Shown here in pieces: positions 49,083 through 62,816 of a DNA stretch of 64,000 bases. Made by a program: the position numbers and the translations under genes. The DNA is taken from the NCBI RefSeq assembly GCF_020177595.1, contig NZ_JAHTBL010000001.1, positions 186,001 to 250,000 on the forward strand, given 5' to 3'. Within the stretch, counting starts at the first letter, position 1; the number at the start of each line of letters is the position of its first letter. This stretch comes from Cognatishimia sp. MH4019. Lineage in GTDB: Bacteria > Pseudomonadota > Alphaproteobacteria > Rhodobacterales > Rhodobacteraceae. Below the pieces are notes generated by a model. The model ran no database searches and was not told the DNA's origin. It worked only from the letters and a program-made list of their open reading frames with translations.

Positions 49083-49547
49083 ATGTTTGGATTGGGCTGG
49101 GGCGAGATGGTCGTCGTGGGGCTTGTGGCGTTGATCGTCGTGGGTCCCAAAGAGTTGCCGGTGATGTTTCGCACCGTGGGTCGCTTTGCGGGCAAAGCGC
49201 GCGGCATGGCCCGCGAGTTCTCTCGCGCGATGGAAGACGCCGCCGATGAGGCGGGCGTCAAGGATATCGCAGGCGATCTGAAAAACATGAGCAACCCCAA
49301 GAAATACGGGCTCGACAAGGTCAAAGAGGCGACAGATTTCGCCAAATGGGAACCGTCGGAGCCGACCAAGCTGCGCGAAGGCTCCGAGACGGCGAAGCTG
49401 GCCGAAGAACGCGCCGAGGCGGCCAAGAAAATCCACGAGGTCTCTGCCCGCAAAGCCCAGGAACGGCTGGATCGTGAGGCCGCCGCCAAAGCGGCAGAGG
49501 CTGCACCGGACACGCCAGAGCCCGCCCCCAAGGATGCAAAAGCATGA
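49083..49547 (+). CDS. tatB: Sec-independent translocase subunit TatB
   Basis: A 154-residue protein with one membrane helix starting [20 protein letters not shown], the conserved Gly-Pro (VVGPKELP) and amphipathic helix [20 protein letters not shown], then a long Lys/Glu/Ala-rich cytoplasmic tail ending in Pro/Ala. TatB forms the substrate receptor with TatC. It overlaps tatC by four bases (ATGA). Confidence 0.95.
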
Positions 49548-50437
49548 GCGACACCGAGCAGATTGACGACAGTCAGGCCCCGCTGATCGAGCACCTGACC
49601 GAGCTGCGCACGCGGCTCATTCGCTCTGTTCTGGCCTTTGTGGTTGCCATGGTGGCCTGTTTCACCGTGGCCGAACCGATCCTGAATTTCCTGGCCGAAC
49701 CCATCGCAGACATCCTGCGCGGACGCGGCGAAGACCCCCGCCTGATCTTCACAGCCCCACAGGAAAAATTCTTCGTATTGATCCGCATCTCCGTGATCGC
49801 GGGCTTCGCGCTCAGCTTTCCCGTGATTGCGCATCAGCTTTGGCGGTTCGTGGCCCCCGGCCTCTATAAATCTGAAAAGAGCGCGTTTCTGCCCTTCATC
49901 ATCGCCTCGCCGTTGCTGTTCCTGATGGGTGCGTCCTTCGCGCACTACGTTGTGACACCGCTGGCGATGAACTTCTTCATCGGCTTTTCCGACGCGATCC
50001 CCGCGCTGACCGCTTTGGTCACCGGCGAGACCGTCGTGCCAAGCGCGGAAAGTCAGGAGCTGTCGACGGTCTTCCTCGGCTCCGTGCGCGAGTCGCTGGA
50101 CGTCTCACTCAAGTTCATCTTTGCCTTCGGGCTGTGCTTCCAATTGCCCGTCTTGCTGACCCTGATGGGCAAGGCCGGGCTGGTTTCATCGCGCGGTCTG
50201 CGCGAGGTGCGCAAATATGCCGTCGTCGGCATTTTGGTGCTCGCCGCGTTGGTGACCCCGCCTGATGTCGTCACGCAGATCATCCTGTTCGTCGTGGTCT
50301 ACGGCCTCTATGAGGTTTCGATCTGGCTTGTCCAAGGCGTTGAGAAGAAACGCAAAAAGCAGATGCAGGAAGAAGGCCTCTGGGACGAAGAGCTGTATGG
50401 CGACGGCGATCTCGACGAAGACGAGGCCGCCAAGTGA
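49544..50437 (+). CDS. tatC: Sec-independent translocase subunit TatC
   Basis: The polytopic receptor of Tat signal peptides, 297 residues with six helices. The signature [19 protein letters not shown] at the N-terminus and the loop [15 protein letters not shown] are typical; [11 protein letters not shown]-type ([18 protein letters not shown]) follows. The C-terminus has an acidic tail ([16 protein letters not shown]), longer than in E. coli. It overlaps the DUF815 gene by four bases. Confidence 0.96.
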
Positions 50438-51276
50438 GCAAAACCCTCAAGCGGATCGCCGCTGCGCTGGACCGGATGAGCCCGCCCCCCGCAGGCGCGC
50501 CGGATTTCGACGCCGCCGGCGCCTTCGTCTGGCACACCAACCCCGACGGCCTGACCCCGGTGCCAAAGGTCAACCGCATCGCCCTTGATCTGCTGATCGG
50601 CGTCGACCGCTCCCGCGAGACATTGCTGGAGAACACCCGCCAGTTTGCGCGCGGTCTGCCCGCCAACAACGCGCTCCTCTGGGGCGCGCGCGGGATGGGC
50701 AAATCCTCTCTCGTCAAAGCTGTGCACGGCGCGGTGAATGCTGAAGGCCTGCCGCTCAAAGTGGTCGAACTTCAGCGCGAAGACCTGCCCAGCATCTCGC
50801 GTTTGCTTACGCATCTACGCGCCTCCGATCACCGCTTCCTGCTCTTCTGCGATGACCTCAGCTTTTCTCATGACGACCAGCACTACAAATCCCTGAAAGC
50901 CGTTTTGGATGGTGGCATCGAAGGCCGCCCCGAAAACGTGCTGTTCTACGCCACCTCCAACCGCCGCCACCTGATGCCCCGCGATATGATCGAGAACGAG
51001 CGCGGCTCGGCGATCAATCCGTCCGAGGCGGTTGAAGAAAAGGTCTCTCTTTCCGACCGTTTCGGGCTGTGGCTGGGCTTTCATGCCTGCAGCCAGGACG
51101 AGTATCTGGCGATGATCCGCGGCTATTGCGACGCCCACGGTGTCGAGATTGAGGACGACGTCTTGCGTGCCGAGGCCGTCGAATGGCAAGCAACGCGCGG
51201 CGCGCGCTCAGGCCGTGTCGCGTGGCAGTATTTCACTGATCTGGCCGGCCGTCGCGGTGTGAAGGTCGCGGGATAG
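50434..51276 (+). CDS. DUF815 family P-loop ATPase
   Basis: A 280-residue AAA-like ATPase starting at GTG. Walker A is LLWGARGMGKSSLVKAVH, the Walker B-like segment is FLLFCDDLSFSHDD, and ATSNRRHLMPRDM resembles a sensor 1 region. DUF815 proteins are widespread in Alphaproteobacteria and are uncharacterised. It overlaps tatC, so it is expressed with the Tat machinery. A role in handling or quality control of Tat substrates is possible but not shown. It is followed by a weak hairpin and then the convergent mannosidase operon. Confidence 0.85.
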   Translation: MSKTLKRIAAALDRMSPPPAGAPDFDAAGAFVWHTNPDGLTPVPKVNRIALDLLIGVDRSRETLLENTRQFARGLPANNALLWGARGMGKSSLVKAVHGAVNAEGLPLKVVELQREDLPSISRLLTHLRASDHRFLLFCDDLSFSHDDQHYKSLKAVLDGGIEGRPENVLFYATSNRRHLMPRDMIENERGSAINPSEAVEEKVSLSDRFGLWLGFHACSQDEYLAMIRGYCDAHGVEIEDDVLRAEAVEWQATRGARSGRVAWQYFTDLAGRRGVKVAG

Positions 51277-51382: not shown

Positions 51383-54300
51383 TCACGCACGCGAAAATTT
51401 CACGGTCTTGATCTCAAAAGGCTTGAGCGTCACAGCGACCCTGTTCTGATCGAGCGCCAAAGGCGCGATCGGGTCCTCGAAAATCGTTGCCACATGGGCC
51501 GCCTTGCAGCCAAAACCCAAGGTAAGCTCGGTGGTCGTCGCAACGCCATGCGCTTCGAACATGCGCAGGACGATGTCACCGTCGGCATTTGCGGGCTTGA
51601 TCGTTTCGATGATGACATTGCGCGCGCTTGAGGCTGCAACCGGTTTGGACGCGGCCATATCCGAGGCAGACGTCTCCAGCACCCTGAGCGGGGCGTTCAG
51701 ATCATATGCCTCGTGATCAAGCTGTTCCGGCTGATCGGCATCGAACGGCAATAAGGCATAGGTGAACCGGTGGCCCCCTTGGTCTGCATTCGGGTCGGGG
51801 GCGGTTGCCGATTTGATGAGCGTGATACGGATACGCCCGCCAAGCACATCATAGCCGTATTTGCAGTCATTCAGAACCGCGACGCCAAGGTTTTTGTCCG
51901 TCAAACACGCCCATTTCTGGGCCGGTACTTCAAAGCGCGCTGCGTCGAAATCAGTGTCGCGACGCGTGCTGCGCGACACGCGGCCCCATTGCGTATCATA
52001 ACTCGCAGTGTCGCTGACGAGTGTTGTCGAGAACGCGGCTTTCAGCAGCGTGTGCTGCTCGTGCCAGTCCACATCCGTGACAAAATCCAGCCGTGCGGAA
52101 TGCGCGCGCAGTTGGATGCTTTGGCGGATTTCGCTGTGCCGCCAACGCGTGACAAAGTGGATGGTTGCCCGTAACGGTCCTGTTTCGACAATCTCAGCTA
52201 TGGTGTCACCGGTGACCAGCGCGCAATGCTCTTCATAGCTTGGGTCAATGTCCCAGGCGTCCCAGCAAATCGGACGATCTTCAAATGCCAGCAGTTGGTT
52301 TCCAAGACTGCCATCTGCAAGAACGCTCCGCTCGCCCCGCTTGTCGAAAACCTCTGAAACAGTGCCATCGGGTGTCAGCACGACCCGCAGCAACGGGTTT
52401 TCCAGGATAAACCGCGCACCGTCCTTGCGGGCGGTGACCTCACCTTTTGGCATGACAGCCGCAGAGATTGGCACAACGCAATAGCCCGGCAAGTCATCGA
52501 AGAAGGCAAGTGTGCCCTCTGCCGTGGTCTGCCCCTTCACCGCCGTATTGTCACCAAACAGTGCCAGCCGTGGGCCTGTCGTTGGCGCCGTGTTCACCGC
52601 GCGCGGCTCAGGCCCGGCCAGCGCTTTGGCCGCCGTGCTTGCGGCATCCTCGACCAAAGCTCTGATGTTGGCAAAATCACCGCGCGTGTCGTCAAACACC
52701 TGTCCGATTGATGTGCCGGTGATGATGTCATGGAACTGGTTAAGGCATAGCAGCTGCCACGCCTCCGTCAGGTCCGGGTTCTGCCCTGCCATCACGGCCA
52801 TCGCTTCGGCCTCGTGCAGCGCCCACTCCGCCTTGCGGTTCGCGCGTTTGATCCAGCCTTGAGATGTGTAGGTGCCGCGATGACCCTCCATGTAATGCTC
52901 ACCCTGCCAAACGGGCAGATCAGGAGTGTCCTTGATGGCGTCAAACATGTCGCGCACGTTGCTGTATTTGAACTGCGGCATGCCGGGCATGCTTTTGAAG
53001 GCTTGCGCCTTGGCAAGAAGGTCCTCGGTGGGGCCGCCGCCGCCATCGCCGTAACCAAAGCAAATCGGCAGATCGCGCACCGACTGGGGCGAGGTGCATC
53101 TGGTGACCGTGCCCAGAACCTCTGGCGCGGTCAGGTCACTTTTGTAGTTGGTTGGAAAAGGCAGATACTGCACGTCGCGCGGTGTGCTCAGCACATGAGC
53201 CAGCACACGCGACCCGTCCAGCCCCTCCCAGTGATGCGTTGAGGAGGCGATCTGATTAAGCTGGTTCCAGTTCAGCTTGTTCGTGACGAACCAATCAAGC
53301 CCGGCAAGCTGCATCAGCTGCGGGATTTGTGCGGGAAAACCGAACGTGTCGGGGAGCCAGAGGACAGGCGTCTCCACCGCCCCAAACGTATCGCTGAAAT
53401 AACCGCGCCCCAATGTGAGCTGCCGGATCAGCGATTCTGCACCGATGACATTCAGGTCAGGCTCAACCCACATGCCGCCCATGACCTCCCAGCGGCCTTC
53501 GGCAACGCGCTCTTTGATCTTGTCGAAAAGGGCAGGGTAGTCCTTTGCGGTGTAGGCATAAAGCTGGGGTTGCGAATGCGAGAACTGGAAATCGGGATCG
53601 TCCTCCATCAAACGCAGCACATTCGTATAGGTCCGCGCGTTCTTCAGCCTGATCTGATCGACCGTCCAAAGATAGGCGATATCCATATGCGCATGGCCGA
53701 TGCCGTGCAGGGTGATGTCCAGCGGGTCCCCGGCCGAGGGCAGTTCAGCCTTCAGGAGCGACAAAGCTTCGGGGGCGGTGCTGTAAAGCGCATCACCGAT
53801 GGGATCACGCGTGTCGAGCAGGCGCAGCGCATGATCCAATATGTCCAGAACGGCCGCGCCTGTCGCGTTGTCGAGCGTTGTGGCCGTGTCCAATACGGTC
53901 TGCGCAAGTTGCACCAGCTCCAGCAATACCGGGTCGCGTTCGACCAAAGCCGGCACCCCCATGAACAGCTTGGATTTGGAGTTCGGCTCAGGGGGCCAAC
54001 CGGCCAGCCCGGTCCAGCCGTGCAGTGACAGCACATGCGGCGCACCATCAGCGACATCAGGATCAAGGCGGATCGTGTGGTGATAGCGATCCGCCGAGCC
54101 GATGGGGATGCGGTCAACATGCACCATCGCTTCGGGATGATTGAACACATCGCCCAGAAGACCCAACGGCAAATGAAGCGCGAGGTTTGTCGCGTCCCAA
54201 CCGTCCGGCACTTGAAAAGTCGATTTCATGACGAAATTCAGATCAGCATGACCCCAATAGCTTTCATGGGGGATTTCATCCCATAGTGTCGGATCGCCGC

Positions 54301-54442
54301 AAATGGGCGCATCCAGCATCGGTTCCAGCAAGGGAAGGATGCGAAAATGCGGCAAGATGGATCGGCGCCGATGCACATAAGGCGCGATCAGCTTAAGCCG
54401 CGCGCCCAGCTTTTCGGGGGTGAAGGGCCATTGGCGTTTCAT
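51383..54442 (-). CDS. Alpha-mannosidase, glycoside hydrolase family 38
   Basis: A 1019-residue cytoplasmic enzyme without signal peptide. The GH38 core starts near residue 247 with LHGIGHAHMDIAYLWTVDQI: His252 and Asp254 are zinc ligands. The nucleophile is Asp365 in LWLPDTFGFP. RWEVMGGMWVEPDLNVIG and FHDIITGTSIGQVFDDT (mid domain) are further conserved parts, and the C-terminal beta domains follow. The first 245 residues are an extra N-terminal region seen in Mn- or Co-dependent bacterial and fungal vacuolar forms. Family members release mannose from alpha-linked glycans or glycerate mannosides. It is the last gene of a transport operon and overlaps the ATPase by four bases. Confidence 0.93.
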   Translation of the reverse strand: MKRQWPFTPEKLGARLKLIAPYVHRRRSILPHFRILPLLEPMLDAPICGDPTLWDEIPHESYWGHADLNFVMKSTFQVPDGWDATNLALHLPLGLLGDVFNHPEAMVHVDRIPIGSADRYHHTIRLDPDVADGAPHVLSLHGWTGLAGWPPEPNSKSKLFMGVPALVERDPVLLELVQLAQTVLDTATTLDNATGAAVLDILDHALRLLDTRDPIGDALYSTAPEALSLLKAELPSAGDPLDITLHGIGHAHMDIAYLWTVDQIRLKNARTYTNVLRLMEDDPDFQFSHSQPQLYAYTAKDYPALFDKIKERVAEGRWEVMGGMWVEPDLNVIGAESLIRQLTLGRGYFSDTFGAVETPVLWLPDTFGFPAQIPQLMQLAGLDWFVTNKLNWNQLNQIASSTHHWEGLDGSRVLAHVLSTPRDVQYLPFPTNYKSDLTAPEVLGTVTRCTSPQSVRDLPICFGYGDGGGGPTEDLLAKAQAFKSMPGMPQFKYSNVRDMFDAIKDTPDLPVWQGEHYMEGHRGTYTSQGWIKRANRKAEWALHEAEAMAVMAGQNPDLTEAWQLLCLNQFHDIITGTSIGQVFDDTRGDFANIRALVEDAASTAAKALAGPEPRAVNTAPTTGPRLALFGDNTAVKGQTTAEGTLAFFDDLPGYCVVPISAAVMPKGEVTARKDGARFILENPLLRVVLTPDGTVSEVFDKRGERSVLADGSLGNQLLAFEDRPICWDAWDIDPSYEEHCALVTGDTIAEIVETGPLRATIHFVTRWRHSEIRQSIQLRAHSARLDFVTDVDWHEQHTLLKAAFSTTLVSDTASYDTQWGRVSRSTRRDTDFDAARFEVPAQKWACLTDKNLGVAVLNDCKYGYDVLGGRIRITLIKSATAPDPNADQGGHRFTYALLPFDADQPEQLDHEAYDLNAPLRVLETSASDMAASKPVAASSARNVIIETIKPANADGDIVLRMFEAHGVATTTELTLGFGCKAAHVATIFEDPIAPLALDQNRVAVTLKPFEIKTVKFSRA

Positions 54443-56169
54443 GCTTCCTGCAAATCAAAACCCGGGACGATGCCACGATAGATGGAGCGCGCTTTCGCGG
54501 CTTCGGCCTCCAGCTTGACCGGGTCCCAGTCTTGCCGTCCGTCCCCCCAGCTTCGATGCAGGTCAGGCCATGGGATGCTGTCGATCAGCAACTTGGTATA
54601 GGGGTGCTGTGGTGCGCCGATGACCTCTTTCGGTGGCCCCGCCTCGACCACATGGCCTTTGAACAGGACCATGACGTAGTCGCTGACGTGATAGGCCGTT
54701 GCCAGGTCATGGGTGATGTAGAGGATCGAGATACCGTATTTGTCTTTCAGATCGTAGATGTTCGACAGGATCGACGCCCGCAGGGAGGCATCAACCATCG
54801 AAACGGGCTCATCCGCGATCAGCAATTTGGGGCTGAGCATCAGCGCACGCGCAACGATAAGGCGCTGGCGCTGCCCACCAGAGAGCTGGTGAGGATAGCG
54901 GTTGAGGACCAGATCGGGATCTAGCCCGACAGCATCGCAGGCCTCTTCCATGGCGGTCTGGGTATGAGCGTCGGATTTGGCCAGCCCGAACTGCTTGAAC
55001 GGAAATTTCAGCGCGTGATTGACCCGGTAGAACGGGTTGAAACACGCGTAGGGGTCTTGGAAAACGGCCTGCACATTCTTGCGGAAATCGAGCGATTGTG
55101 CCGCAGACATTCTTGCCACGTCCTGCCCTTCAAACAGCACGCGCCCTTCACTGGGCGGATTAAAACCCAGCATGATCGACCCCATGGTCGATTTGCCAGA
55201 CCCCGATTGTCCGACGATGGAAATGATCTGCGGTGTGTCGCCTTGCAGGGTAAACGACATCGGATGCAGGGCTGTCACCGCGCCGTAGTTTTTCCGCACG
55301 TCCTCAAAGCGCAGCAACGGCTCGGCACTTGCGCGTTCAGGGGCCTTGGCACGGGCATCGGGGTTAAGGAAACTCTCGCCCCCAACCAACGGAACCGAGG
55401 AGATTAAGTCGCGCGTATAGGGGTGCTTTGGCGCCTCTAGAATTTGTTGCACCGTGCCGTGCTCGACCAGTTCGCCGTCTTTCAAAACGGCCAATTCATC
55501 CACGGTCTGTGCCATCAGCCCCATGTCATGGCCGATCAGCATCAGACCGGAGCCAATCTCGGATTGGATCGCCTTGAGCGTTTGCATCACCTGCCGCTGG
55601 GTGACCACATCCAGCGCCGATGTCGGTTCGTCCGCGATGATCAGTTCGGGGTTCAAGATGATCCCCATCGCGATACAGACCCGCTGTTTCATGCCGCCTG
55701 ACAGCTCGTGCGGATAAAGATCGGCGGTATGCTGGGGCAGGCCGACGCTTTCCAGCGCGGCATCCGAACGGCGTTTAAGCTCGGCGCGGTCCAGTTTGCC
55801 CTCATGGGCGATGATACCGTCCCACATCTGCGGCTCGACACGCATCACCGGGTTCAGCGAATTCATAGCCCCCTGCGGGATGTAGGCCACGCGGCTCAGG
55901 CGTGTGCGGCGCATCTGGTCTTCGTCAAGATCCAGCACATTGGTGCCGCCCAGATCAATCGTGCCACCAGCAACGCGCCCGGGTTCCGCCAGCATTTGCA
56001 TCACCGCCAGCGCGGTCGTCGTCTTTCCGGAGCCGCTTTCGCCGATAAAACCAACGCGTCGGCCTTTGTGGATATCGAGCGACAGCGCTTTGACCGCCTG
56101 CACCACGCCTTGCGGGGTCGGAAACTCGATCGACAGGTCTTTCAGGGTGAGGACGGGTTTCTCTGTCAT
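54439..56169 (-). CDS. ABC transporter ATP-binding protein, two fused ATPase domains (Opp/Dpp type)
   Basis: A 576-residue protein joining the two ATPases that are separate (DppD, DppF) in many systems. Domain 1 (about 1-270): Walker A GESGSGKTT, signature LSGGMKQRV, Walker B LIIADEPTSALD. Domain 2 (about 290-576): GQSGSGKST, LSGGQRQRL, LLIADEPVSMVD. Both carry the oligopeptide-family C-terminal piece (HPYTRDLISSVP and HPYTKLLIDSIPWPD). It energises the two permeases at 56166 and 57100 and overlaps the neighbouring genes on both sides. Confidence 0.93.
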   Translation of the reverse strand: MTEKPVLTLKDLSIEFPTPQGVVQAVKALSLDIHKGRRVGFIGESGSGKTTTALAVMQMLAEPGRVAGGTIDLGGTNVLDLDEDQMRRTRLSRVAYIPQGAMNSLNPVMRVEPQMWDGIIAHEGKLDRAELKRRSDAALESVGLPQHTADLYPHELSGGMKQRVCIAMGIILNPELIIADEPTSALDVVTQRQVMQTLKAIQSEIGSGLMLIGHDMGLMAQTVDELAVLKDGELVEHGTVQQILEAPKHPYTRDLISSVPLVGGESFLNPDARAKAPERASAEPLLRFEDVRKNYGAVTALHPMSFTLQGDTPQIISIVGQSGSGKSTMGSIMLGFNPPSEGRVLFEGQDVARMSAAQSLDFRKNVQAVFQDPYACFNPFYRVNHALKFPFKQFGLAKSDAHTQTAMEEACDAVGLDPDLVLNRYPHQLSGGQRQRLIVARALMLSPKLLIADEPVSMVDASLRASILSNIYDLKDKYGISILYITHDLATAYHVSDYVMVLFKGHVVEAGPPKEVIGAPQHPYTKLLIDSIPWPDLHRSWGDGRQDWDPVKLEAEAAKARSIYRGIVPGFDLQEA

Positions 56170-57098
56170 GACAGCCTCCTCAGGCGGGGATTTGAAACCT
56201 CATCAAGGCCGAGATTGATCAGCAAAAGCCCAATGAAGATGATGGCCAGCAGCAATGTCGGAATACCCCACCACCACCACAGGTTTTGAATCAGCGCGCC
56301 TGCGTTGATGGCCTCGTAGATCGTGCGGCCAAGGGTCGGGATGCGTTGTGGACCAAGCCCGAGCACCTCGAGCCCCACGGCGGTCACAATGGATGTGGTG
56401 ACCGACGCGATGAACGAGCCAAAGAGATACGGCACCAGATTGGGCATCATCTCGCGGAACATGATGTGGCTGGTCGAGGCACCGGATAGCTGCGCCATTT
56501 GCACATAGCCCGATTGCTTCATCGACAGGACCTGCGCCCGGATCAGGCGGGTCGGCGATTGCCAGACGAACCCCGCGATGAGCAGGGCCATCATCGTAAG
56601 CGAGACGTCTCCGAAGGCGGATTGGAACACGACAAGGATCAGCAGGGGAGGGATGGTGATCATCACATCGGCGCTCACGCGAATGATATCGTCCGTCCGT
56701 CCCCCCAGAAAACCTGCCGAGAAGCCCAGAAAGATACCGATGGACATACCGATCAAAGACGCGAGCAGACCCACGAAAAGTGTGTTCGGCGCGCCGATGA
56801 TGATCAGCGCCAGCACGTCGCGGCCTCCGCCATCCGTCCCCAGCGGGTTTGCCATGCTCCCGGCCTGACCGCGCAGGTTCTCAAAACCGACAGGGGGCAG
56901 ACGCAGCATGCTGGATCCGGTGAACACCAGATCGGGATCCCAGACGAACCGCCCGATGATCCCCATCGCGATGATACCAAGCAGCAGGGCAGCGCCCCAG
57001 ATCAGCTTGGGGTTCATCCATGGATTATCAAAGCGTTTGATCCGTTTTGCCTGCCGCTTTTCAGCGCGTGTCGGGGGCAAGTGGTCTTGGGATGTCAT
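56166..57098 (-). CDS. ABC transporter permease (DppC type)
   Basis: A 310-residue inner-membrane permease with six helices. The first helix lies after a Lys/Arg-rich N-terminus (PTRAEKRQAKRIKRFDNPW). PLGTDGGGRDVLALIIIGAP is the hallmark of the DppC branch, and the ATPase-contacting loop is YVQMAQLSGASTSHIMFREM. The start at 57098 is one base after the stop of the upstream permease. ATGA overlap with the ATPase gene follows. Confidence 0.9.
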   Translation of the reverse strand: MTSQDHLPPTRAEKRQAKRIKRFDNPWMNPKLIWGAALLLGIIAMGIIGRFVWDPDLVFTGSSMLRLPPVGFENLRGQAGSMANPLGTDGGGRDVLALIIIGAPNTLFVGLLASLIGMSIGIFLGFSAGFLGGRTDDIIRVSADVMITIPPLLILVVFQSAFGDVSLTMMALLIAGFVWQSPTRLIRAQVLSMKQSGYVQMAQLSGASTSHIMFREMMPNLVPYLFGSFIASVTTSIVTAVGLEVLGLGPQRIPTLGRTIYEAINAGALIQNLWWWWGIPTLLLAIIFIGLLLINLGLDEVSNPRLRRLS

Positions 57099-57099
57099 A

Positions 57100-58110
57100 T
57101 CAAGCCACCTCATGCCGGATGCGAGGATCAATAAACGGGTAGACCAAATCGACAAGAAACACGCTGAGCGCGGTGATCAGAATGATCACGAAGCTCACAC
57201 CCTGGATCACGGGGAAGTCCTGATTGAGGATCGCATCGTATAGCAGCTTGCCCATGCCGTTATAGGCAAAGATGCGTTCCACCAGAACCTGTCCCGCGAT
57301 GAGCAGACCGATCTTGAGCGCAAAGGCCGTGATCTGCGGCAGGATCGCATTGCGGATCATGTAGCGGTAAAGAATGTAGCGCGGGCGCAGGCCCTTGGCC
57401 TCGGCCAGTTTAACGTAGTCTTCGCCTTGCACCCCGATCATCAGGCCGCGCATGCCCAGGGCCCAGAAGCCGAATGTGACAACGACAATCGAAAGGGCAG
57501 GCAAAAAGCCGTGATAGACGACCGACTGCACGAACTCCCATGTCCAGCCGGGTTCGACAAATATGCTGTAGGCCCCGGTCAGCGGGAACCATTGCAGCTT
57601 GGCCGCAAAGACCCACATCAGCAAAAGACCCGACAGAATGGGCGGGATCGAGGTAAAGACCATCGCAGCCGGAATGGCCACCCGCACCAGTTTGGGCGAG
57701 CGGTCCCAGACCATCAGCGCGCCCAGCAGGTTGCCGATGACAAAGGTGATGATCAGCGACAGGATCATCAGCCCCAGCGTCCAGGGCAGCGCGTTGAGGA
57801 TCAAGGTGGAGACGGGCGTTGGAAAGGCCGCCGTCGAGAGCCCGAAATCAAACACCAAAGCACCGGTGATATAGCGGAAGTATTGCAGGAGCATTGGCTC
57901 GTCGATGCCCATATTGGCGCGCAACTGGGCCAGGATCTCTTCCGAATTGGCAACAGACCCTGCACCGGCAGCCATGCGGCCAAGGGCGATTTCGGCGGGA
58001 TCAACAGGCGACAGGCGCGGGATGATCCAGATGATCGTCGCGGCGATCAAAACGGTCAGGATCAGCGTGGTCAGCCGGTTGATGAGATAAGCGCGAGGAA
58101 TGCGTCCCAA
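57100..58110 (-). CDS. ABC transporter permease (DppB type)
   Basis: A 336-residue permease. It begins RIPRAYLINRLTTLILTVLI, a typical DppB first helix, followed by a periplasmic loop with an insert (EIALGRMAAGAGSVANSEE) and five more helices. The coupling loop is EDYVKLAEAKGLRPRYILY. AGGAGAGA-type Shine-Dalgarno (GGAGAG) lies before the start. First of the two permease genes, 98 bases downstream of the binding-protein gene, with a stem-loop between. Confidence 0.9.
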   Translation of the reverse strand: MGRIPRAYLINRLTTLILTVLIAATIIWIIPRLSPVDPAEIALGRMAAGAGSVANSEEILAQLRANMGIDEPMLLQYFRYITGALVFDFGLSTAAFPTPVSTLILNALPWTLGLMILSLIITFVIGNLLGALMVWDRSPKLVRVAIPAAMVFTSIPPILSGLLLMWVFAAKLQWFPLTGAYSIFVEPGWTWEFVQSVVYHGFLPALSIVVVTFGFWALGMRGLMIGVQGEDYVKLAEAKGLRPRYILYRYMIRNAILPQITAFALKIGLLIAGQVLVERIFAYNGMGKLLYDAILNQDFPVIQGVSFVIILITALSVFLVDLVYPFIDPRIRHEVA

Positions 58111-58156
58111 AGGGTCTCTCCTTCATGTCAGGTGGCGCTATAAACTCGCCACTCGT

Positions 58157-58188
58157 GACCGGCGCCCGCTGCAAGCAAAGCGCCGGCC
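58157..58188 (-). other. Intercistronic stem-loop between binding-protein and permease genes
   Basis: A GC-rich 9-pair stem with one G-U pair (arms 58157-58165 and 58180-58188) and a 14-base loop, directly after the binding-protein gene. No T-run follows. Such structures protect the upstream part of transporter mRNAs so that binding protein outnumbers permease. Confidence 0.6.
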
Positions 58189-58208
58189 ACTCTCTCTGGG
58201 AGGGGTCG

Positions 58209-59936
58209 TCAGTTACCAGCCGGTTCCAGATTATGGATGATCTGATGGGTGTGGTTCCACCAGAAGAACGGATGGTTGTAGTAATTGTCCGCCGTGGGCC
58301 AGCCTGTCCAATAGGTCTCGTTCATCGGCAAGAGCTTGGCTGCCTGAACAAGTGGAATGAAGGGCATTTCGGCGTCCAGATGGGCGTAGGCTTCGGCCAC
58401 AAGACCGGGGATTTCCGCATCCCCCAAAGGACGCGCGGCGATATCTTCCATGATCGCGCTATAGCTTTCAGCAGCCGGACCATCCCAGCGGGCGGTGTTG
58501 TTAAAGCCCGGACTACGCTCGCCCACGGGCACCACATCGGCGACCGTATAGCGACCCATCGAGGCCCAAGGCTCGTTCACCGAACCACATGACAGCCAGC
58601 TGTAGGACATCTCATACGCACCGAACGGCAGAACCTCGCCCCAGAACACACCGTTTTCCACCGGCACCGCACGGGCGTCGATGCCAGCGCGTTGCAACTG
58701 CTCGACAATCACGTCGATGGTGCGGGTGTATTCGGTTGAGGCAGAGTTGACGTGGATCTGCACCGAAAGCGTTTCGCCATCCTTGGTGTAGAAGTCGCCG
58801 TCTTTCGACCAGCCCTCCGCCTCAATCAGCGCTTGCCCCGCAGCGACATCAGCGCGTGCAGGCAAACCGTAGCCCGCCTCCACCACAGCGTCGATGAACG
58901 GCGACATGGAGCCATATTGCGCGAACATCGTTTGCGACGCGGCCGTCGTGCCTTCATAGGCCACATTCACGATCTGTGTCCGGTCGATGATATTGGCCAC
59001 GGCTTTGCGCATATTCGCGTTGTCCCAAGGGGCAACGGTTGTGTTGATCTCCAACTGACGCGCACAGGGGTCGGCGGCGGCGTAGGGGTAATCCGCATAC
59101 CAGGCGATCACATTGGGGTTTTGGGCCTGAATGGCCTCAAATGTGCCGATTGTCACATTCTGCGCGGCATCCAGCTGGTTGGCGGCCATCAACTGCGCCC
59201 GGCTTTCCTCGCCGCCGGTTTCCACAAAGACCACACGTGCGGGCGCGGGCAGGTCCATGAAGCCGGTTTTGGCACCCCACCAGTCATCATTGCGATCCCA
59301 GATCGCACGGTTCGACGCAGCGGATGTGAAGGTGTAGGGGCCTGTCCCAATCGGTGGGTTGAAGGCGAATGTCGCGGGGTCCTGTCCAGCCCAGACATGC
59401 TCTGGCATGATCAGGAAAGACCCGAAGATGCGCACGCCGAAATTTTCAACGATGAAGCGTGGGTTGGGATCGTTGAGGGTGAATTTGACGGTCAGGTCGT
59501 CAATCTTCTCAACCGACGCAACCTGCGCTTTGATGGTGGAGGCCTCGCGCGAGGAAATGTCTTCGTTGGTCAGCGCGATATCAGTGGTGAAGATCACGTC
59601 ATCGGCGTTGAACGCCTCTCCATCTGACCACTCGACCCCGTCGCGCAGCGAGATCGTGAATTCGGTGCTGTCCGCATTGCTTTCAAAGCCAGTCGCGAGC
59701 CAGGGATCAACCTCGCCGGTGCCGTAGTTGAGGATAAAAAGCGGCTCCCACATCGTCTGATGCGCGCCGTGCATCCGCTTGGTGCCCGGTGTCATCCAGT
59801 TGAAGTTCTCGGGGTCCTGAATGGTGCGATCAAGGTCAAAAATGACCGTGTTCTCGCGGGCAACATCTTGGGCCAATGCCGCCGTTGCCGCCAAGGCAAC
59901 CGCAGAGGTCGCCAAAAGTAGTCTTCCCAGTTTCAT
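58209..59936 (-). CDS. ABC transporter substrate-binding protein, family 5
   Basis: A 575-residue periplasmic protein with a Sec signal peptide (KLGRLLLATSAVALAATAALA, cleavage before QDV). GGGAGGA precedes the ATG at 59936. The family 5 fold is supported by WEPLFILNYGTGEVDPWLA near the start, LRDGVEWSDGEAFNADDV, and MRKAVANIIDR. Family 5 proteins bind peptides, nickel or oligosaccharides; in some bacteria they deliver mannose or glucose oligomers. Together with the GH38 enzyme this points to a glycan ligand. Only the context supports this; the pocket residues cannot be read from sequence. Confidence 0.92.
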   Translation of the reverse strand: MKLGRLLLATSAVALAATAALAQDVARENTVIFDLDRTIQDPENFNWMTPGTKRMHGAHQTMWEPLFILNYGTGEVDPWLATGFESNADSTEFTISLRDGVEWSDGEAFNADDVIFTTDIALTNEDISSREASTIKAQVASVEKIDDLTVKFTLNDPNPRFIVENFGVRIFGSFLIMPEHVWAGQDPATFAFNPPIGTGPYTFTSAASNRAIWDRNDDWWGAKTGFMDLPAPARVVFVETGGEESRAQLMAANQLDAAQNVTIGTFEAIQAQNPNVIAWYADYPYAAADPCARQLEINTTVAPWDNANMRKAVANIIDRTQIVNVAYEGTTAASQTMFAQYGSMSPFIDAVVEAGYGLPARADVAAGQALIEAEGWSKDGDFYTKDGETLSVQIHVNSASTEYTRTIDVIVEQLQRAGIDARAVPVENGVFWGEVLPFGAYEMSYSWLSCGSVNEPWASMGRYTVADVVPVGERSPGFNNTARWDGPAAESYSAIMEDIAARPLGDAEIPGLVAEAYAHLDAEMPFIPLVQAAKLLPMNETYWTGWPTADNYYNHPFFWWNHTHQIIHNLEPAGN

Positions 59937-59955
59937 GTTCTTTCCTCCCAGAAAA

Positions 59956-59991
59956 GGGCTTTTCGCCCAGTATTTTGTCCGGTTACCGGAC
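59956..59991 (-). other. Stem-loops between the MBL gene and the binding-protein gene
   Basis: Two structures: a 15-base palindrome GTCCGGT-t-ACCGGAC (59977-59991) across the MBL stop codon, and GGGC-gaaaa-GCCC (59956-59968, minus-strand sense) followed by four T. The latter could act as a weak attenuator or as a barrier to RNA decay upstream of the binding-protein gene. Confidence 0.45.
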
Positions 59992-60663
59992 GTAGTCCAT
60001 GACCAAAACACGTGTGCGGTCTGGCAGGGCCTCCTTCGTGATTACATGCGTCGCGCCAAAGGCGAAATCGACATCTTCGTCCTTGAAATGGCTCAGAAAA
60101 CTCTCAATCCACATGGTGTTGCGCGGCTTGTAGGTCAGCGTGCGAAAATGCATCGGGATCACCAGCTTGGGCCGGGTCCGGTGGATCATTTCCATCAGGT
60201 CGGGCAACTCCAGCGTCAGATAGCCACCCGCAAGGGCAAAAAGCACATCGACATCTTCGAAAAATGCTTGCTGGGCGTCGGTCAGTGGATTGCCGACATC
60301 CCCCATATGCGCAAACCTAATCCCGTCCAGAGTGAACCGGTACATGCCATTCTGGCCCGGAACCTCGTGTTCCGGGTGGTGGTCCCACTCGGCGCCCTCG
60401 ATGGCGGTGATTTCAATACCGTTCGCTGTCACCGATCCACCGCTCTGCGCTACTGTCAGCGCATTCACCACCGTCGGATCGCCATCGATCAGATCCGCGC
60501 GGCAATGGGCGCTGTCATCGTCGGAAGAGATAATGACAAGATCGGCAGGCTCTTTGATCGGCGCATAGCCCACACCTTCGGGTGTATAGGGATCGGTGAT
60601 TACCCTTGGCCCGCTCGCCGGTGTTACTCCAAACGCTGCATGGCCGAACCACGTGATTTCCAT
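59983..60663 (-). CDS. MBL-fold metal-dependent hydrolase (UlaG/UPF0173-like)
   Basis: A 226-residue metallo-beta-lactamase-fold protein. ITWFGHAAFGV at the start is the typical UlaG-like opening. The first zinc motif is altered: where HxHxDH is expected the sequence is ISSDDDSAHC, so the site is reduced. FAHMGDVGNPL and LVIPMHFRT hold the later metal ligands. UlaG-like members open lactones, which would suit sugar-acid metabolism; this is inference. It abuts the dioxygenase gene (TGA directly followed by ATG). Confidence 0.85.
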   Translation of the reverse strand: MEITWFGHAAFGVTPASGPRVITDPYTPEGVGYAPIKEPADLVIISSDDDSAHCRADLIDGDPTVVNALTVAQSGGSVTANGIEITAIEGAEWDHHPEHEVPGQNGMYRFTLDGIRFAHMGDVGNPLTDAQQAFFEDVDVLFALAGGYLTLELPDLMEMIHRTRPKLVIPMHFRTLTYKPRNTMWIESFLSHFKDEDVDFAFGATHVITKEALPDRTRVLVMDYVR

Positions 60664-61488
60664 TCAGTTATTCCCCACCACATGCGGACTTTGGGTCAGT
60701 TTGATATCGTCATTGTCAGGCCGTGGATGCGTCACCCAGTCTCCGGCATCCCCCCGGCACAAGATCGCTTCCACCCCTTTTGCCCACGCCGGATCAGTAA
60801 TCCTGACACTGGGTGGGCAATAGCGCAGGGTCAAACCGCAGCGCCTGCGATCAGACCGGTTGGCCAGTGATCCATGCACAAGCATATCGGCATGCAACGA
60901 GATTTGTCCCGCCTTCAGCGTATTGGTGAAGGGATCGCCAAGCGCCTCTGCATTCGCGGTTTCCTTATGAAAAACCGCCTCACGTCCGGTAGCCTGCACA
61001 TCCAGCGCACCTTGGTTATGCGTGCCCGGAATGAACCGCATCGCCGAGTTTTCCGCATCAGCATCATCAATCGCCAGCCAGACCGTTACCGTCCGGGCAG
61101 GCGACAGCGCCCAGAATGACGCGTCTTGGTGCCAAGGGACGGCTTTGGGATCGTGCGGTTTCTTGGACAGAACAGCCGTTGCCCAACACAGGATATCAGG
61201 ACCGATGATGTCCTGCACATGGTCCAGAATGCGAGGGTTGGTCGCGATATCCCAAAGACCCGAAAGACGCGCCTGATAGCAATTCACGCCATAGGCGCCA
61301 TCGGGCCCTAGATCCGCCATGAGTTGATCAAGATACCGACGAATATGCACGATTTCAGAGGCCGAGAAGACATCGAAAGGCTGCACGAAACCTTGCGCAT
61401 TGTAATCCGCGACCTGACGCGCGGACAGCTTGAGCCCGTCTTCCTGCACAGCCGGCACAAAGCGCAGGTCCTGCATATCTTCAATCAT
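60664..61488 (-). CDS. Phytanoyl-CoA dioxygenase (PhyH)-family Fe(II)/2-oxoglutarate enzyme
   Basis: A 274-residue non-haem iron oxygenase. GGAGG lies before the ATG at 61488. The iron triad is His120-x-Asp122 (PWHQDASFW) and His205 (DMLVHGSLANRS); an arginine a few residues later is placed to bind 2-oxoglutarate. GTHNQGALD is a typical PhyH piece. Members hydroxylate or demethylate small molecules. As first gene of the mannosidase operon it might remove an alkyl or similar group from the imported compound. The frame is open upstream, but only as antisense to the AraC gene. Confidence 0.88.
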   Translation of the reverse strand: MIEDMQDLRFVPAVQEDGLKLSARQVADYNAQGFVQPFDVFSASEIVHIRRYLDQLMADLGPDGAYGVNCYQARLSGLWDIATNPRILDHVQDIIGPDILCWATAVLSKKPHDPKAVPWHQDASFWALSPARTVTVWLAIDDADAENSAMRFIPGTHNQGALDVQATGREAVFHKETANAEALGDPFTNTLKAGQISLHADMLVHGSLANRSDRRRCGLTLRYCPPSVRITDPAWAKGVEAILCRGDAGDWVTHPRPDNDDIKLTQSPHVVGNN

Positions 61489-61614
61489 TGTCGTCCTCCC
61501 GCCGGCCATGGTCAGGGACCAGCTGCCAAGAGTCACTAACGAGCTTTGACATTTTATTACACTATATTGATTTTTTATAGCTGCACAGCAGCATTTAATT
61601 GCTAATCTTGCGGT
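61489..61614. promoter_or_regulatory. Control region between the mannosidase operon and araC-type gene
   Basis: An AT-rich 126-base divergent gap. Contents: TTGACA at 61546 (plus strand), CTATA-N9-TATAG half-sites (61562-61580), and GCTGC-aca-GCAGC (61580-61592). On the minus strand TATAAA lies at the CTATA/TATAG element. A clear -10 for either direction could not be fixed. The region is the probable binding site of the AraC-type regulator. Confidence 0.5.
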
Positions 61615-62481
61615 ATGCAGAAAACAACCTTCTACATCGAGAACTACATCAGGCCGGATGAGGCTTTTCATTTCGCCCGCAAGTCTTTGGCAAAACGGTT
61701 TCCCAATGCCGCCCATGATCATAACTTCTTTGAAGTCTTCCTGATTGAGAGCGGCCAAACCAGCCATTGGATCAACGGTGAAACCCAGCAGCTCGAGCCG
61801 GGGCACCTGACTTTCATCCGCCCCAATGATGTCCACGCTTTTCGCGCTGACCGCGCCAAAGGATGCCAGATCATCAACGTGATGTTTCGGGTGGAAACAG
61901 CGCAGCACCTCAAGGCCAGATACGCCAATCCAATCGCAAACGCGTTCTTTGACAGCGCCGCGCATATGCCCGAAATGCACAAGCTGGACACCGTCCGATT
62001 TGCCCGCGCCATCAATGTCGCGCAGCAATTGCAAACGGCCCATCGCTCTTTGGCGCGCATTGAAGAGTTTCTTCTTGTGTTGACCAATCGGGTGGCGGAT
62101 GCCGCCGGTGGGCTGACCCCAAACGCGCCGCGCTGGTTCGCCGAAGCGTGTAGTGCGGCACAATCGCAAACCGTTTTCAGCCAAGGGGCCGCCGGTTTCA
62201 TCGCCGCTGCCGGTCGCAGTCACGAACATGTCTGCCGCACCTGCAAAGCGGTCACAGGCCTGACCCCGTCCGAATACATCAATCAGGTTCGCATCGAATA
62301 TGCAGCCCACCTGTTGCGAAGCGATGAACGTGCCATTGATGATGTGGTCGACGCCTGTGGCTTTGACAACAGCAGCTATTTCTACAGACTGTTTCGCCGC
62401 CAATACGGGACGACGCCGCGCAAATACAGGCTCGAAAATCAAAGGGACCCGTTCCAGATGGTTGATAGGGACGGTCGATAA
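61615..62481 (+). CDS. AraC-family transcriptional regulator
   Basis: A 288-residue regulator. The N-terminal cupin-type sensor domain includes HNFFEVFLIESGQTSHWING and LEPGHLTFIRPNDVHAFRAD. The C-terminal double helix-turn-helix is at about residues 190-285 with CRTCKAVTGLTPSEYINQVR, EYAAHLLRSDERAIDDVVDA, and GFDNSSYFYRLFRRQYGTTP, the family signature. Divergent placement makes it the likely sugar-responsive activator of the mannosidase/ABC operon. A near-perfect palindrome covers its stop codon. Confidence 0.93.
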   Translation: MQKTTFYIENYIRPDEAFHFARKSLAKRFPNAAHDHNFFEVFLIESGQTSHWINGETQQLEPGHLTFIRPNDVHAFRADRAKGCQIINVMFRVETAQHLKARYANPIANAFFDSAAHMPEMHKLDTVRFARAINVAQQLQTAHRSLARIEEFLLVLTNRVADAAGGLTPNAPRWFAEACSAAQSQTVFSQGAAGFIAAAGRSHEHVCRTCKAVTGLTPSEYINQVRIEYAAHLLRSDERAIDDVVDACGFDNSSYFYRLFRRQYGTTPRKYRLENQRDPFQMVDRDGR

Positions 62482-62488: not shown

Positions 62489-62816
62489 ACCAGCCGCAAT
62501 GCGGGATTGCCCCCAAATCACAACGCCTGACAAAAATTCCCAATCGCCAGATCGGATATTGCTCCTGATCTTTGCCGCCAGAAAACTTCGATCTTGCAGC
62601 GAAAACCACAAACGGATGGCCAAAATTGGATCGGGCCGCCGGTCTTCAACTCGCGATTATTCAACCATCCGTTGATGAGGCTCCCGCAAGCGATCAAGGA
62701 ATAGACAGACGCTGTGCCATGGTTTGGGAACACGCATGCGGATGCCTTTGTGCACTGGACAAATCCACCGGCGAGTAAGAACATTCCAGCCAATCAGAAA
62801 TCAGGGAGACGTTTGG
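62489..62816. other. Leader region of the amino-acid ABC operon
   Basis: About 330 bases with no gene I can support. AACGGATGG (62611-62619) and its exact complement CCATCCGTT (62665-62673) form a 9-base inverted repeat around a 45-base spacer. No convincing sigma-70 promoter was found, so the promoter of the binding-protein gene remains unidentified. Confidence 0.5.

Follow-up and report, generated by a model that had tools for sequence, protein, structure and literature searches.

We analysed a window of 64,000 nt from Cognatishimia sp. MH4019 (GCF_020177595.1, NZ_JAHTBL010000001.1, positions 186,001-250,000, forward strand). In it, a run of seven genes on the - strand, from 61488 to 51383, encodes a predicted alpha-mannosidase of glycoside hydrolase family 38 (GH38), an ATP-binding cassette (ABC) transporter with a family-5 binding protein (SBP5), a PhyH-family oxygenase and a metallo-beta-lactamase (MBL)-fold protein, with a divergent gene for an AraC-type regulator (table 1). 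Frames, families and order all match the first-pass annotation of this DNA, which had described seven genes in the same direction and a divergent AraC gene. The PhyH and MBL genes abut directly, 46 bp separate the MBL and SBP5 genes, permB and permC are spaced by 1 bp, and 4-bp overlaps join permC to the ATPase gene and the ATPase gene to the GH38 gene. The PhyH gene likely starts at the ATG at 61488, which is preceded by a GGGAGG resembling a ribosome-binding site, and not at the far-upstream TTG at 62499 given in the program's open reading frame list. The 98-bp gap between the SBP5 gene and permB holds a strong hairpin, likely an mRNA stabiliser or partial terminator. Such hairpins are common after binding-protein genes where the binding protein is made in excess.

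Table 1. Genes and sequence elements of the mannosidase operon, in window coordinates.
Feature	Position	Strand	Remarks
PhyH-family Fe(II)/2-oxoglutarate oxygenase (P0001)	61488-60664	-	274 aa; PF05721 1e-28
MBL-fold protein (P0002), Lactamase_B_3/TM0207 branch	60663-59983	-	PF13483 1.4e-42; altered first metal motif
Family-5 periplasmic binding protein SBP5 (P0003)	59936-58209	-	575 aa; PF00496; signal peptide
Stem-loop 3' of SBP5 gene	58155-58190	-	-29.5 kcal/mol; z -3.36 vs shuffles
ABC permease B (permB), TTG start	58110-57100	-	PF00528 + PF19300
ABC permease C (permC)	57098-56166	-	PF00528
Fused double ABC ATPase, Dpp/Opp/GsiA type	56169-54439	-	576 aa; two ABC_tran + oligo_HPY
GH38 alpha-mannosidase (predicted), Ams1/MAN2C1-like	54442-51383	-	1019 aa; no signal peptide
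AraC-type operator, direct repeat TCAA-N16-GTCAA	61546-61570	-	same interval in 22/25 loci
Divergent AraC/RhaS-like regulator (P0008)	61615-62481	+	288 aa; PF02311 + PF12833

Relatives were located by a GH38 scan of genome contigs and by tblastn of the window's proteins. A search for co-occurrence of these families in this order, as suggested in the first-pass annotation, revealed AraC and all seven genes, in the same order, in 17 other loci, nearly all from Rhodobacteraceae and one from Roseibium. AraC stands in the same divergent place in all 17, and the complete order was also present in further genomes. Among 199 genomes of the same family, orthologues of GH38, PhyH and MBL occurred in 13, 14 and 13, with overlaps of 12 (GH38 and PhyH), 11 (GH38 and MBL) and 12 (PhyH and MBL). 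The hypergeometric p values, ~1e-14 to 1e-16, should be read as a guide only, since the identity cut-offs were chosen after the tables had been seen and the genomes are related. The proposal that PhyH belongs with the mannosidase operon is supported by its inheritance together with GH38, and the assumed link between GH38 and the transporter is borne out by operon structure, operator and co-inheritance. One genome of the same genus (G106) lacks GH38, PhyH and MBL, and its DNA similarity to the window stops at ~51278, the end of the gene adjoining the operon. Outside the operon, no additional conserved partner gene was shared by more than 4 of the 34 loci. Pairwise-distance correlations between operon genes were moderate (0.3-0.9), and no conclusion is drawn from them.

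Between AraC and the first operon gene, a TCAA-N16-GTCAA direct repeat was found in 22 of the 25 loci tested. The window holds a single copy of its strict form, TCAANNTAGNNNANNNNNNNGTCAA, against 0.02 expected with one mismatch allowed, and the whole genome has no second one. For the loose form, 27 background occurrences were counted in 1.89 Mb, or ~0.002 per 150-bp interval. Because the 17 other loci retain the order despite lower identity and the operator is conserved, the arrangement goes beyond chance, and the operon is real, conserved and co-regulated. Genome G172 has an operon without PhyH (L122) and carries PhyH elsewhere (L155:9365-11140), beside an AraC paralogue with 40% identity to P0008 and downstream of an operator-similar sequence, ATCAATATAGTGCATCAAAAA. 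As the relocated PhyH keeps both, its tie to AraC-type regulation survives relocation. Downstream of it lies a gene resembling pyrroloquinoline quinone-dependent glucose/sorbosone (sugar) dehydrogenases.

The transporter had been suggested to import oligosaccharides, and its relatives agree with a sugar-importing type. The best PDB relatives of SBP5 are mannoside-binding proteins (4pfu/5hm4, E 7e-41), followed by a chitin-oligosaccharide-binding protein from Vibrio (1zty). Mannoside and chito-oligosaccharide binders match with E values from 7e-41 to ~1e-28, whereas nickel and dipeptide binders reach 1e-22 or weaker. Plasmid cousins of SBP5 (31-33% identity) sit in sugar-acid/fucose-like catabolic operons with genes for an SMP-30 lactonase, an enolase-type dehydratase, a rhamnose mutarotase, a short-chain dehydrogenase/reductase and a sulfatase. 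Together, these relatives suggest that the ligand of SBP5 is a sugar. The best plasmid relative is an orphan gene from Bradyrhizobium (L132), and for plasmid relatives of MBL and PhyH we found no sugar-uptake context. The ATPases in L024:8027-9794 and L122:9729-11478 are only ~50% like that of the window, compared with 82-87% for the permeases, which points to probable gene replacement.

All GH38 domains are present in the mannosidase (PF01074 4e-79, PF09261 4e-22, PF07748 7e-61, plus PF17677). Its nearest solved relatives are of the Ams1 type, Ams1 itself being the best PDB match (6lz1, E 2e-123). Residues H252, D254, D365 and H571 are invariant across 19 sequences of bacterial relatives; in GH38 enzymes these positions provide the metal ligands and the Asp nucleophile. 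The enzyme is predicted to act on alpha-mannosides. We rejected its membership among the MngB-type mannosylglycerate hydrolases, as it scores 81 bits against the NF007331 cut-off of 1138: it shares the GH38 family with E. coli MngB but is not an orthologue of it. Of the seven operon genes, that for GH38 varies most: its mean pairwise identity is 0.55, compared with 0.76-0.82 for SBP5 and the permeases. Because inspection revealed a signal peptide only on SBP5, we take GH38, PhyH and the MBL-fold protein to be cytoplasmic. In genome G001, GH38 fragments with an in-frame TAG (L118:9435-10750) and an AraC remnant are probably a decaying operon copy.

In PhyH, the H120-x-D122, H205 triad and R214-R216 are invariant in 18 orthologues, and the Asp in the triad indicates that the enzyme is not of the halogenase type. 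Fold comparison of the PhyH model, whose mean predicted local distance difference test (pLDDT) score was only 75, gave ThoJ as the best match, then SyrB2 and other Fe/2-oxoglutarate enzymes; no near orthologue was among these matches. In the tree the PhyH orthologues cluster together, and the two located outside the operon fall within this cluster. More distant relatives (37-40%) in other alphaproteobacteria were set aside as a different system, since their conserved neighbourhood differs and consists of two similar ~517-aa proteins, a hydrolase-like gene and transport-like genes. In ~10 loci a second PhyH (PhyH2) is inserted between SBP5 and permB, with 22-29% identity to the first PhyH and 71-77% among themselves. 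In a single genome (L028) this slot is occupied by a cytochrome P450, with no redox partners nearby.

The MBL fold was predicted with confidence (model pLDDT 88), and the best fold match was TM0207 (1vjn), an MBL-fold protein of no known function (template modelling scores 0.74/0.85, 28% identity). TM0207 has SHxHxDH, whereas P0002 and its orthologues carry SSDDDxAHCR(xD) where HxHxDH is expected. The later ligand positions (H, GD and PMH) are kept, so that the protein may still bind metal through Asp. Because the canonical motif is missing, a hydrolase role is unproven, and the first-pass annotation's idea of an MBL hydrolase for lactone opening or ester removal becomes a guess. Relatives of the protein also occur alone, away from the operon (L113, L115, L116, L134 and L135). 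SSDDDxAHCR is conserved across the subfamily (59983-60663 and L110, L115, L111 and L116), and stand-alone relatives have SSSNDDFHDNDH at this site.

A related gene set in two Chloroflexi loci (L033 and L034) comprises a GntR/LacI-type regulator, SBP5, permeases, two ATPases and GH38, and no PhyH or MBL match was found near these mannosidase genes. This set is likely the older core: as PhyH and MBL are absent there and are sometimes lost or moved separately, they look like accessory additions to an older alpha-mannoside module. In the operons of our set, PhyH and MBL are attached but separable modules. In one genome MBL and SBP5 are separated by a sulfatase gene (PF00884, CLPSR motif) that is read from the other strand (L114:5248-6807); it was not used as evidence.

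We consider it fairly probable that the genes form an AraC-controlled, self-contained operon that scavenges a small alpha-mannoside with a substituent or aglycone needing oxidation. SBP5 and the ABC transporter would import the intact glycoside into the cytoplasm, where the metal-dependent site of GH38 would release alpha-mannose. With O2 and 2-oxoglutarate, PhyH would hydroxylate a C-H bond in the moiety, whether already released or still attached, the simplest outcome being removal of an O-alkyl group (e.g. O-methyl) or a similar one. PhyH2 in some lineages, or once the cytochrome P450, would act on a further position, and the MBL-fold protein might handle the oxidised product or a related step at its modified metal site. 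We infer that an alpha-mannoside is the substrate, that it is taken up intact and cleaved in the cytoplasm and that part of it is oxidised, and also that it carries an extra group, previously imagined as alkyl, acyl or lactone; the identity of this substituent and the reactions of PhyH and the MBL-fold protein are guesses. More tentatively, the operon could encode an undescribed O2-dependent pathway of marine Rhodobacteraceae for substituted alpha-mannosides, in which GH38 cleaves the imported compound and a dedicated PhyH (with PhyH2 or the P450 in some lineages) and an Asp-site MBL enzyme then act on its sugar or aglycone.

Several findings weigh against mannoside scavenging as formulated above. 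Kinase, isomerase and dehydrogenase genes are all absent from the operon. In the window's genome (99.99% complete), searches found no phosphomannose isomerase (PMI) type I domain and no member of the GlcNAc_2-epim family, and no GMP/PMI type II relative was found in the 1.89 Mb read (52% of the genome). PhyH or MBL is missing from otherwise intact operons: L122 has no PhyH, and L117 retains only a 53-residue MBL match, and the rest of its genome yields no MBL at E 1e-30. Finally, genome G059 has a PhyH that groups inside the operon PhyHs in the tree and lies beside urate-oxidase and NMT1-type ABC transport genes (L156:5345-10401); no GH38 match was found in this genome. The lack of a PMI type I domain and of a GlcNAc_2-epim protein keeps alive the thought that the aglycone, and not mannose, is the prize, and we give it a modest chance. 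In that case the imported compound would be an osmolyte or heteroside with an alpha-mannosyl group, for instance the mannosylglycerate of red algae or an alcohol or acid that carries mannose, and PhyH and the MBL-fold protein would degrade the aglycone after GH38 had acted. The absence of mannose catabolic genes from the operon fits this, as does an AP_endonuc_2-like (sugar-isomerase-type) gene that joins the operon in L035 and has relatives in L125 and L128. However, GH38 scores poorly with the mannosylglycerate hydrolase model and has its closest relatives among oligomannoside enzymes. The Chloroflexi version, the single loss or relocation of PhyH and MBL (L117, L122) and the stand-alone MBL relatives would also suit a plain operon for alpha-manno-oligosaccharides from N-glycans or mannan, with PhyH and MBL as passengers or doing an unrelated job under the same regulator. 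We think this unlikely, because PhyH, MBL and GH38 are co-inherited near-perfectly within the family, the operator is followed first by PhyH and MBL, and the relocated PhyH retains its AraC paralogue and operator-like sequence.

The most specific form of our favoured explanation, scavenging of an alpha-mannoside that needs oxidation, is that the operon demethylates O-methylated alpha-mannosides oxidatively, their source being, for example, N-glycans of algae or invertebrates or polysaccharides of algae. PhyH, joined in some lineages by PhyH2 or the P450, would hydroxylate the O-methyl group, formaldehyde would leave and the mannose would be metabolised. The P450 in the PhyH2 slot of L028 agrees with this, as P450 removal of the methyl group from 6-O-methyl-galactose is known in porphyran degradation (PMC10033563), and N-glycans of algae and molluscs are reported to contain methylated mannoses (PMC6974686, PMC8699351). 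The genome further encodes a full-score match to S-(hydroxymethyl)glutathione dehydrogenase, a candidate formaldehyde-oxidising enzyme that could take up the formaldehyde, although this gene is common and therefore weak evidence. Demethylation in this strict sense is doubtful, however: it leaves the MBL-fold protein unexplained, genome searches found no PMI or mannose isomerase, and the P450 is present in one genome only. It is highly improbable that the transporter imports a peptide, nickel or an opine and that GH38 stands there by chance. Family 5 contains such importers, and generic Opp/Nik models give the highest scores for the ATPase and permeases, but no NCBIfam peptide, nickel or opine model passes its cut-off for SBP5, whose nearest solved relatives bind mannosides and chito-oligosaccharides, and GH38 is attached to the transporter even in Chloroflexi. 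The relatives of SBP5 in PDB, NCBIfam and on plasmids led us to reject this candidate, and peptide uptake, which would have spoken against the first-pass annotation, is accordingly unlikely.

Among known systems, the mannoside importers of Thermotoga maritima (TM1223/TM1226-type; 1vr5, 4pfu, 5hm4) include the family-5 binding proteins nearest to P0003 among solved structures. We take their ligands to be beta-linked mannobiose and cellobiose, and we know of no PhyH or MBL in the T. maritima locus. GH38 genes with ABC transporters are already known from N-glycan and xanthan loci, according to our literature search. The high-mannose N-glycan operon of Bifidobacterium longum (GH38 and GH125) resembles ours in having GH38 alpha-mannosidases that act on mannosides within one operon (Cordeiro et al. 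2022, as cited in PMC10154615), but it belongs to another phylum and has several mannosidases instead of one, and neither an oxygenase nor an MBL protein is described for it. That an oxygenase can remove a substituent from a sugar is known from the catabolism of sulfoquinovose (PMC12890257) and of 6-O-methyl-galactose (PMC10033563). In the former, the sulfo-ASDO route, the Fe/2-oxoglutarate dioxygenase SqoD of Marinobacterium aestuarii strips the substituent and serves as a working analogy for PhyH, likened to P0001 by description only; it acts on C-S bonds of sulfoquinovose, and no GH38 is mentioned (PMC12890257). In porphyran demethylation, an oxygenase likewise takes a methoxy group off an algal sugar, and is a P450 as in the PhyH2 slot of L028, but the sugar is different, PhyH is not used and no GH38 is involved (PMC10033563).

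The first-pass annotation knew the combination of GH38, PhyH and MBL from no described pathway, and we found no description of the operon in literature searched on GH38 with PhyH, Roseobacter, demethylation and mannan, a search of open-licence papers only that is not proof of novelty. The mannose-cutting step appears ordinary, and its pairing with an iron oxygenase and an odd MBL-fold protein appears undescribed. At its core the operon is an alpha-mannoside uptake module of a known kind, whereas the attached PhyH and MBL make it a new variant whose chemistry is interesting but unproven. If our favoured explanation holds, an oxygenase-assisted route would be added to known alpha-mannoside use, the genes would serve as markers to follow how marine Rhodobacteraceae turn over one specific compound that contains mannose, and a subfamily of MBL-fold proteins whose conserved motif is unusual would become available for study. 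As the operon is compact, conserved and under a single operator, its inducer, its ligand and each of its enzymes are directly testable. Beside the operon, tatB/tatC-like genes and a following ATPase-like gene (49083-51276) converge with it.

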